A stretch of 5,665 nucleotides of DNA, from positions 1-5,665 of the forward strand of contig JAGCKY010000079.1 in the NCBI GenBank assembly GCA_017647245.1. The letters are read 5' to 3'. Shown one piece after another: positions 129-985 of the stretch (its first letter is position 1; every line of letters starts with the position of its first letter). The translations under genes were made by a program, and so were the position numbers. The notes below the pieces were generated by a model, which ran no database searches, was not told the DNA's origin, and saw only the letters and a list, made by a program, of their open reading frames with translations. Source of the stretch: Elusimicrobiaceae bacterium (GTDB lineage Bacteria; Elusimicrobiota; Elusimicrobia; Elusimicrobiales; Elusimicrobiaceae).

Positions 129-827
129 TTAATTCTTATAATACCAGCGCACTAAATTATTTTTACTGCTTGTATTAGCCGTGGTGGATTCTGTTTCTGA
201 TATACAAATCCTGGCTCGCCAGTCTTTTTTATCGGTAGTTCCATGAATGGCACAGGAACGCGCTCTATTTGCAAAGTCTTTCCTATAATCCATATTTATC
301 AACAAATCCTCGCATACAGCCGCCCCGCCAGAAGCAGTAACATAACAATTTCCCCAATCATAGTAACGATAACGCTTAGCATCGCTTTCTGCTGTTTCTC
401 CTTCAAATTCATGCGCCACCGTGCCGCCCGGCATACTGATATCTAAATCGTCAAAATCTACCGAATAACTGCCATTGGATAAACGGTACACTTCTTGCGC
501 CTGTGCGATGCTCTCCACTAAATTTTTTAATTTAGCATAACGGCTTTTTGCAACCGCTTTTCTATATTGCGGCAGGGCAATGGCCGCCAGTATGCCGATG
601 ATTAATACAACTACTAATAATTCTATTAGAGTGAAGCCGTTATTAAATAGTGTTGTCGTCCTGAGATGTTTTTGCCAGGGCCTGTCCCCGAAGGTTGTAA
701 TCGGGGAACCTCCCTCTTTCTTGTTGTTGGTTGTTGTAAAACGGCAACAACCCAAAAAGCGGGAGATGCTGAGTAACAACCTCTCAGCATGACATACGGT
801 TTTGATTTGTTTTTCTTTATTTTTCAT
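129..827 (-). CDS. Type IV pilin (PilE-like major/minor pilin) with an abnormally long leader
   Basis: This is a precursor of a type IV pilus or pseudopilus subunit, 232 residues long. Residues 64-84 carry the class III signal: Gly64 is followed by FTLIELLVVVLIIGILAAIA, with Phe as +1 and Glu as +5 of the predicted mature protein. Cleavage and N-methylation by a PilD-type peptidase are therefore expected after Gly64. The mature part is 168 residues. It has the LPQYRKAVAKSRYAKLKNLV helix continuation and four cysteines (161, 172, 192, 208) that could form two disulfides in the globular head. The start at 827 is supported by AAGGAG five bases upstream, and I see no usable start between the repeat and Gly64. 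Leader residues 12-58 are encoded by an inserted repeat (654-794). Without it the leader would be a normal 17 residues. The gene has its own promoter at 958-985. The pilin identity is secure. Whether the long-leader form is processed and assembled is unknown. Confidence 0.9.
   Translation of the reverse strand: MKNKEKQIKTVCHAERLLLSISRFLGCCRFTTTNNKKEGGSPITTFGDRPWQKHLRTTTLFNNGFTLIELLVVVLIIGILAAIALPQYRKAVAKSRYAKLKNLVESIAQAQEVYRLSNGSYSVDFDDLDISMPGGTVAHEFEGETAESDAKRYRYYDWGNCYVTASGGAAVCEDLLINMDYRKDFANRARSCAIHGTTDKKDWRARICISETESTTANTSSKNNLVRWYYKN
654..794. repeat. Three-hairpin inverted-repeat element inserted in the pilin leader
   Basis: The termini form an imperfect inverted repeat. TGTCGTCCTGAGA (654-666) matches the reverse complement of 782-794, TGTCATGCTGAGA, at 11 of 13 positions. 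Inside are three hairpins. The right arm has an 8-bp stem (766-773/783-790). The centre has an 8-bp stem, GGTTGTTG (729-736) with CAACAACC (745-752). The left arm has a 7-bp stem (685-691/701-707). Read in equivalent orientation, the arm loops are AGGTTGTTA and AGGTTGTAA, each followed within a few bases by CTCCC, although the stems differ. The element therefore looks like two inverted, diverged copies of one stem-loop unit around a centre. The span is 141 bp, exactly 47 codons. The GTCATGCTGAG end resembles dispersed repeats of several bacterial phyla, from memory. No transposase is encoded, and no target-site duplication is evident. A MITE- or REP-like element is the best guess. Confidence 0.75.
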
Positions 828-832
828 ACTGT

Positions 833-838
833 CTCCTT
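833..838 (-). promoter_or_regulatory. Ribosome binding site of the pilin gene
   Basis: AAGGAG on the minus strand is separated by five bases (ACAGT) from the ATG at 827-825. It decides the start: it places translation initiation upstream of the repeat element and so forces translation through it. The TTG codons inside the repeat-encoded part have no comparably spaced Shine-Dalgarno sequence. Confidence 0.8.
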
Positions 839-854
839 ATGTTTTTCTTTTTGT

Positions 855-949
855 CGTCATCCCGGACATGGATCCGGGATCCAGTCCGTTTAGTAAGGCC
901 TTTTTACCTTATTAAAGACCTGGATTGCGGGTCCACGCCCGCAATGACG
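855..949. repeat. Three-hairpin inverted-repeat element in the pilin 5' UTR
   Basis: Two 30-base arms (855-884 and 920-949) are inverted repeats of each other at 23 of 30 positions. Each arm is also its own hairpin. Stem 859-866/873-880 is 8 bp with loop CATGGA. Stem 924-931/938-945 is 8 bp with loop TCCACG, whose reverse complement CGTGGA matches CATGGA at 5 of 6. Most differences between the arms are compensating stem changes. A central hairpin (889-898/907-916) has nine Watson-Crick pairs plus one G/T position and an 8-base loop. The arm sequence (GTCATCCCGGACATGG and onward) belongs to a widely dispersed type of intergenic repeat, from general knowledge. It lies immediately downstream of the predicted pilin transcription start, so it would form most of the untranslated leader. 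Confidence 0.8.
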
Positions 950-957
950 GCATAATT

Positions 958-985
958 ATTGTACCAAAAAAAAAAAACAAGTCAA
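958..985 (-). promoter_or_regulatory. Sigma70-type promoter of the pilin gene with a 12-T spacer run
   Basis: On the minus strand TTGACT (-35, 985-980) and TACAAT (-10, 963-958) each match consensus at 5 of 6 positions. The spacer is 16 bases. TGG directly before the -10 makes an extended -10. The spacer contains a 12-base T run (plus-strand A at 966-977). The transcription start is expected near 951, giving a 5' UTR of about 124 bases that is almost wholly the repeat element at 855-949. A length change in the T run would alter -35/-10 spacing. Confidence 0.65.

Follow-up and report, generated by a model that had tools for sequence, protein, structure and literature searches.

The window, by which we mean the whole 5,665-nucleotide stretch of DNA analysed here, is contig C66 of a fragmented metagenome-assembled genome (MAG) of 1.12 Mb, which comprises 188 contigs and is 78% complete. 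Its minus strand carries a gene for a type IV pilin-like prepilin, with lpxK as a neighbor. The closest match to the lpxK product (82%) comes from an uncultured member of the Elusimicrobiales, and Candidatus Avelusimicrobium excrementipullorum shows 78% identity. The lpxK relatives are Elusimicrobiaceae MAGs, many of them with a gut or rumen sample named in the title, and the host bacterium is likely to be gut-dwelling.

The predicted prepilin carries the N-methylation motif of type IV pilins and pseudopilins, as seen from a match to PF07963 that begins at residue 62 (E 1.1e-7, 31.5 bits against a cut-off of 21.2); the scores for PF16732 and PF16734 were below their cut-offs. The genome contains one prepilin peptidase gene (PF01478), which together with the motif suggests that the leader is removed by this peptidase. 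The features of the gene are summarized in Table 1.

Table 1. Features of the prepilin gene in the window
Feature	Positions	Strand	Remarks
Type IV pilin-like prepilin gene	129..827	-	232 codons plus stop; ATG at 827
Mature pilin	129..635	-	168 codons plus stop; starts with FTLIELLVV
Predicted prepilin peptidase cleavage site, Gly64 / Phe65	633..638	-	Cleavage predicted from the motif
Prepilin leader, MKNKEKQIKTV...TLFNNG	636..827	-	64 codons
Palindromic element read in frame, CHAERLLL...LRTT	654..794	-	Leader codons 12-58; boundaries follow the outer inverted repeat
Nested 27-nt hairpin TCCCCGA..TCGGGGA, in frame	681..707	-	Extra in the window copy; the three most similar copies (C5, C188, C171) lack it
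Ribosome binding site AAGGAG	833..838	-	11 nt before the ATG
Second palindromic element, ATTGCGGG / ATCCCGGA type	855..949	-	In the 5'UTR of the same pilin gene; fold z -7.45 (855-950)
Sigma-70-like promoter TTGACT-TG(T12)GG-TACAAT	958..985	-	12-T tract at 966-977 in the spacer; promoter activity predicted

The element in the leader and its copies

The original prediction, made from the window alone, described an element of 141 nt that is open over exactly 47 codons and lies downstream of the ribosome binding site and the ATG. This description is accurate, and the minus strand is free of stop codons throughout the element. The outer ends form terminal inverted repeats (TGTCAT..GACGACA), as in MITEs, and the predicted fold was more stable than that of shuffled versions of the element, with z scores of -4.7 for the coding strand and -5.3 for the other strand (0/200 shuffles as good). 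No Rfam family matched the window at gathering scores. A REP-type transposase (PF01797) was found in none of four genomes, which are incomplete ones; the control gave a signal in 5 of 14.

A BLAST search with the element against its own genome (E <= 0.001) gave 13 matches in 11 pilin genes, and all 13 were pilin-associated. Ten were located in leaders and three in untranslated 5'UTRs (C1, C168 and C6).

The prediction also held that the element had been cleanly inserted at exactly 654-794, lengthening the leader from about 17 to 64 residues. Neither part was borne out. The short leaders of the same genome contain only 4-13 residues, and the right flank of the element, TATTTAATAACGG with the first codons after it, occurred in ten exact copies in the 25 genomes searched, each time in an element-bearing leader and never without the element. 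The flank is therefore considered to be part of the leader module. No allele lacking exactly 654-794 was found among the pilin leaders of the genome, at the lpxK loci of the same genus or, by means of the right flank, in the 25 genomes; the insertion is thus deduced from comparison. When 23 lpxK loci of the same genus were examined together with flanks of up to 1.5 kb, six proved to contain a pilin whose leader, 4-22 residues long, is free of the element. In three relatives (L135, L137 and L145) these leaders were 16-22 residues long and differed in sequence. Such neighbors could not serve as orthologous empty alleles, because the window pilin ranked only 5th to 74th best against them among its own-genome paralogs. 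In one group of leaders (class C, see below), FTLI is repeated before and after the insert, which may or may not represent a target-site duplication.

Leaders, promoters and pilin repertoire in the genome and the genus

The N-methylation profile gave 137 matches in the genome, of which 136 were above the family cut-off. The pilin list contained 139 rows, corresponding to these matches, C115 and a duplicate entry for C183. Three rows were dropped, namely C168:2518, the only one read without an in-frame start before the motif, C61:91 with an altered motif, and C115 at a contig start; the remaining 136 rows represent 135 genes. One gene cut by a contig end (C119:107) was counted as short (12 residues) in the leader reading and as long in the tree. 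Leader length in the 135 distinct pilin genes was bimodal, with 105 leaders of 4-13 residues, 30 leaders of 26-64 residues and none between. Of the long leaders, 28 contained an inverted repeat that is rich in G+C and has perfectly matching arms of at least 7 nt, and the remaining two (C135 and C40) contained imperfect or shorter palindromes, as judged by eye. The long leaders started with ATG in 29 of 30 cases, and 28 were preceded by a ribosome site with at least four matching bases; the two exceptions (C153 and C73) are cut by contig ends. No inverted repeats were found in the short leaders (0/106 rows), but this is a weak control, since the repeats tested would scarcely fit into leaders that do not exceed 39 nt. 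Grouped by eye, the long leaders fell into six multi-member classes (A-E and H) and singletons, read in three frames, with class A consisting of the window gene, C5, C188 and C171.

Some leaders have a more complex layout. In seven genes (C110, C120, C165, C72, C113, C169 and C187) the element is flanked upstream by a copy of MKxAFTxI, in many cases decayed, and downstream by a second FTLIELL; in C113, the upstream start and the element are followed by a fresh ribosome site and a second start. A homologous prepilin from another assembly (P0007) has a leader of about 97 residues that seems to hold two tandem elements. Furthermore, four open frames of roughly 500-780 residues (C6:4960, C131:2026, C52:2233 and C168:2518) begin with the pilin N-methylation motif.

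The genome (G000, 1.1 Mb) and a relative, G014 (1.5 Mb), contain 137 and 125 pilin matches, respectively, as compared to 8 in G025 (2.7 Mb), which belongs to another family of the order. Most pilins of the genome are preceded by a promoter that hardly varies, TTGACTTG(T12)GGTA, a 24-mer with 85 exact copies. A run of 10-15 A or T was located in the best-scoring -35/-10 spacer of 94 of the 135 pilins (12 nt long in 80 of them), by a scoring that favored such runs. Slipped-strand switches classically involve homopolymer spacers of this type, and by this resemblance a phase-variable pilin repertoire is possible. The 5'UTRs fall into discrete length classes of about 36, 92, 125, 142 and 188 nt that look like modules, for example at 855-949 in the window and in C1, C138:3055 and C14. 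One 5'UTR class carries GGCCCCTTGC..GCAAGG, and the 188-nt class resembles two tandem modules.

A profile built from 19 leaders matched in 8 of the 25 genomes of the genus, including the genome itself, and 64 places were classified, leaving out six weak places in G016 and G018 and not counting two places in G010 that adjoin classified ones. Pilin leaders accounted for 25 of the 27 classified places in G010, two of the 25 being in one leader, but for only 1/25 in G016 and 0/8 in G018. In G004 and G024 one pilin leader each was recorded, and in G001 and G008 the only classified place was of another kind. At the loci in G016 and G018 (L270-L296 and L317-L336), similar elements are mostly located away from pilins (30/33 classified places). 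A further apparent long leader was seen in G019, and 25 pilins in the loci fetched from G014 had leaders of 5-11 residues. Two apparent long leaders in G025 (L242 and L252) resulted from the choice of start codon, were found by eye to lack a TGTCAT-type palindrome, and were not counted. Based on this uneven distribution, we conclude that the feature arose, or spread, in only some species of the genus.

The 24 long leaders of G010 are 44-78 codons long. Their elements are mostly read in the TCA frame (SCRKVFIRHL, SSREAVTRDL), unlike the element of the window, and three leaders are in the frame of the window (CAT); at L313, GTC precedes the element in the G010 frame reading. In the seven of these 24 leaders that were compared, the two arms of a hairpin have been exchanged as a pair while the rest is unchanged, and the leaders are 83-95% identical, as compared to 65-75% for the mature parts. 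A T-tract promoter of similar kind precedes the G010 leaders that were compared.

Hairpins in the leaders and probable separate histories of leader and mature part

Several analyses agree with the prediction that the element is a nucleic acid repeat read in frame rather than a conserved peptide. In addition to the untranslated matches in the three 5'UTRs, different leaders bear different palindromes, and all three frames are used. The leader's first GTC falls in frame 1 in 14 cases, in frame 0 in 7 and in frame 2 in 6, or 12, 7 and 3 when class C and C73, where the GTC is internal, are left out. For comparison, the untranslated UTR elements have 138 forward frames, of which 36 are open.

A census of hairpins anchored on GTCAT, covering 527 kb of the genome, gave 106 hairpins, as compared to 4.7 in base-shuffled DNA. 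Their density was highest in pilin leaders, with 27 hairpins in 6.0 kb (4.5 per kb, where the length includes the elements themselves), followed by the 250-nt stretches that precede pilins (47 in 19.8 kb, 2.4 per kb), other intergenic DNA (15 in 41.8 kb, 0.36 per kb) and other open reading frames (17 in 390 kb, 0.04 per kb), at least 6 of the latter 17 being in frames that run upstream of a pilin. None of the 106 was located in mature pilin coding DNA, over 68.7 kb.

Covariation of the arms was analyzed in an alignment of nine leaders (three of class A, five of class B and C97), from which the structure itself was drawn. In this alignment 92% of the cells were paired, with 98.6% in helix 1 and 100% in helix 3. 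Cells changed on both sides numbered 41 against 16.8 in shuffled alignments, and the covariation score was 0.476 against 0.226 when shuffled and at most 0.144 when the partners were slid. Two of the five measures did not exceed the shuffles, namely two-sided changed pairs (11 against 8.8, reached by 62/500) and further pair types (14 against 21.3), and helix 2 showed no two-sided change in the nine leaders.

Codon changes were compared in 21 pairs, which are not independent, drawn from 20 of the 30 long-leader genes. The leaders contained 91 synonymous and 242 nonsynonymous changed codons, with 120, 138 and 178 differences at the three codon positions. In the first 28 codons of the mature part, the same pairs showed 268 synonymous and 38 nonsynonymous changes, with 71, 25 and 262 differences, and the mature N-termini of long-leader genes are thus under strong purifying selection. 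Taken together, the changed codons and the pairing data suggest that the amino acids of the leader are free, whereas the frame and the stems are kept. The opposite pattern of conserved amino acids without hairpins, which the original prediction had named as refuting it, was not seen. The dense hairpins in leaders, their absence from mature pilin DNA and the unconstrained leader amino acids support the predicted tolerance of the repeat in a leader that would be discarded.

The leaders and the mature parts have different patterns of similarity. Within class A, identity is 89-92% in the leader DNA and 68-75% in the first 150 nt of the mature part, where the most conserved stretch is encoded. Over classes A-E, the leader surpassed this 150-nt segment in identity in 45 of 47 within-class pairs and equaled it in the other two (C173 with C61 and with C97). 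The identity ends 2-8 nt past the cleavage joint in 19 of 20 pairs and 14 nt past it in the remaining pair. The three pairs that include C187 lose their identity upstream of the joint. The class D leaders are 94-97% identical, and that of C152, when compared with C14 and C19, is also joined to an unlike UTR (57-59%). On a tree of mature parts, in which 58 of 125 inner branches remained open and which covered 128 of the 136 rows (mature length 100-260, duplicate removed), leader class required 14 changes against 15.1 when shuffled (five classes, 24 genes; 296/1000 as low), as expected if it is independent of the mature clade. Long and short leaders as such clustered somewhat on this tree (20 changes against 27.0; 1/1000 shuffles). 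These results suggest that leader modules are likely to have been copied between pilin paralogs by recombination (gene conversion), in which case the sharp edge of identity would mark the start of the homology common to all pilins, at FTLIELL. A constraint at the nucleotide level could explain part of the likeness of the leaders.

Interpretation and comparison with known systems

The reading that we favor, with a probability of about 0.72, is that a palindromic repeat in the pilin leader is kept in frame, translated as part of the prepilin and cut off with the leader by the prepilin peptidase. Inserts between the promoter and the cleavage codon would survive provided that the frame is kept, because no other part of a pilin gene is absent from the final filament. 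The leader modules would afterwards be copied from paralog to paralog, with the edge of the copied block set where the homology shared by all pilins begins.

Alternatively, the hairpins may be selected as RNA, as a 5' stem-loop, located in the 5'UTR or in some genes just past the start, by which the mRNA is protected or its translation adjusted, with the peptide as a by-product. Covariation of the arms and their paired exchange in G010 are as expected from this explanation, as is the placement of the elements between the promoter and the mature coding region, in both 5'UTR and leader; in C61, C145, C165 and C187 a short hairpin-free UTR is even accompanied by hairpins in the leader instead. 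However, 60 of the 105 short-leader genes, counted with the duplicate C183 row removed, have no UTR hairpin by the same test, many of them with a 36-nt UTR and the same promoter, and a hairpin is therefore not needed for a pilin gene. The elements in G016 and G018 that lie away from pilins also argue against a role in pilin mRNA, and distinct element families with palindromic arms would appear covariant without any RNA function. We consider selection as RNA possible, although rather unlikely.

The remaining explanations concern the leader itself. The leader of 64 residues exceeds the 15-30 residues quoted for type IVb pilins in the part of PMC3927602 that describes them, and the original prediction allowed for a gene damaged by the insertion or on its way to becoming a pseudogene. 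However, the frame, the ribosome site, the promoter and the mature open reading frame are all intact and G010 contains as many as 24 long-leader genes, and the strong purifying selection on the mature part makes a damaged gene improbable. It is just as improbable that the long leader is a genuine extension of the protein with a function of its own, such as a long signal or a regulatory N-terminal domain: a recognizable peptide pattern is common to many leaders, but nonsynonymous changes dominate and like elements are read in different frames across genes and species. A misjoining of short-read contigs at repeated pilin sequence could have produced the shared leaders, given the 188 contigs of the MAG and several pilin genes that run off contig ends. 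We regard such an artefact as quite improbable, since the same long-leader proteins are found on more than one database contig (two for the window, three for C171 and five for C5, in assemblies that are possibly not independent) and the pattern is repeated in G010, which is assembled in about 40 contigs and 99% complete. Finally, translation might start downstream, leaving the long frame unused, as 15 of the 30 long leaders have an in-frame ATG 5-10 codons before the cleavage site, mostly from the ...GGGATGAC end of the element. These 15 could in principle yield a short product, but a spaced ribosome site was found at none of them, as compared to 28/30 at the upstream starts. The window gene and 14 others, with all of class A among these 15, have no such ATG. 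In the window gene no in-frame ATG, GTG or TTG is present within 13 codons of the cleavage site, and two in-frame TTG codons are located further upstream, inside the element. A start downstream of the element, which the original prediction had named as evidence against itself, is thus highly improbable.

Rickettsia palindromic elements (RPEs) are described in the relevant passages of PMC10969869 as palindromic repeats of about 150 bp that belong to several families and are located in frame in host proteins, in unrelated genes. The likeness to RPEs proposed in the original prediction holds for the element as such, which is palindromic, of similar size, open, and translated in frame inside a coding gene. 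It fails for the choice of target, as the elements studied here reside in a single gene family rather than in functionally unrelated genes (13/13 matches in the genome; 25/27 places in G010), occupy a leader that would be discarded, use all three frames and are also found in untranslated pilin 5'UTRs. Due to this restriction to one gene family, we have not filed the element as an RPE.

REP/BIME and MITE-type palindromes are short inverted-repeat elements of several hairpins, as is the element in the window, and the location of the elements in G016 and G018 also agrees with such repeats. Unlike these, the elements in G000 and G010 are concentrated at pilin genes, and PF01797 was not detected in the four genomes. 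Mosaic pilin genes formed by copying between paralogs are known from the pilE/pilS gene conversion in Neisseria, which is similar to the copying suggested here; in contrast, copying here would affect the discarded leader instead of the exposed portion, probably with complete genes at scattered sites as donors. As in type IVb pilins, the leader is longer than 10 residues and the cut by prepilin peptidase is predicted. However, the leader of 64 and the mature part of 168 residues differ from the type IVb sizes, the latter being 180-200 residues in the same part of PMC3927602, and the mature part in the window starts with Phe and resembles the short-leader paralogs.

Translated repeats are known from Rickettsia; new here are the restriction of translated palindromes to the discarded leader and the 5'UTR, and their module-like spread across paralogs. 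Our literature search retrieved no account of either the palindromes in pilin leaders or the expansion of the pilins, and the genome paper on Elusimicrobium minutum may remark on pilin numbers. More speculatively, and as an idea that we hold to be doubtful, the more than 100 pilin genes may be built from interchangeable 5' modules (a T12-spacer promoter that could switch by slippage, 5'UTR, palindrome leader and mature pilin), with the palindromes as shared recombination handles for moving modules from paralog to paralog and the leader as the joint of a combinatorial, phase-variable repertoire.

With 30 long-leader and 105 short-leader paralogs in one family, the pilins of this genome offer a natural experiment on why some genes tolerate translated repeats. 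Inserts are missing from the mature protein and concentrated in the segment that would be lost on processing, which raises the question of how long a leader the prepilin peptidase can handle. The results also suggest that this little-studied gut lineage has a large repertoire of mosaic pilin genes, preceded by promoters with homopolymer tracts.
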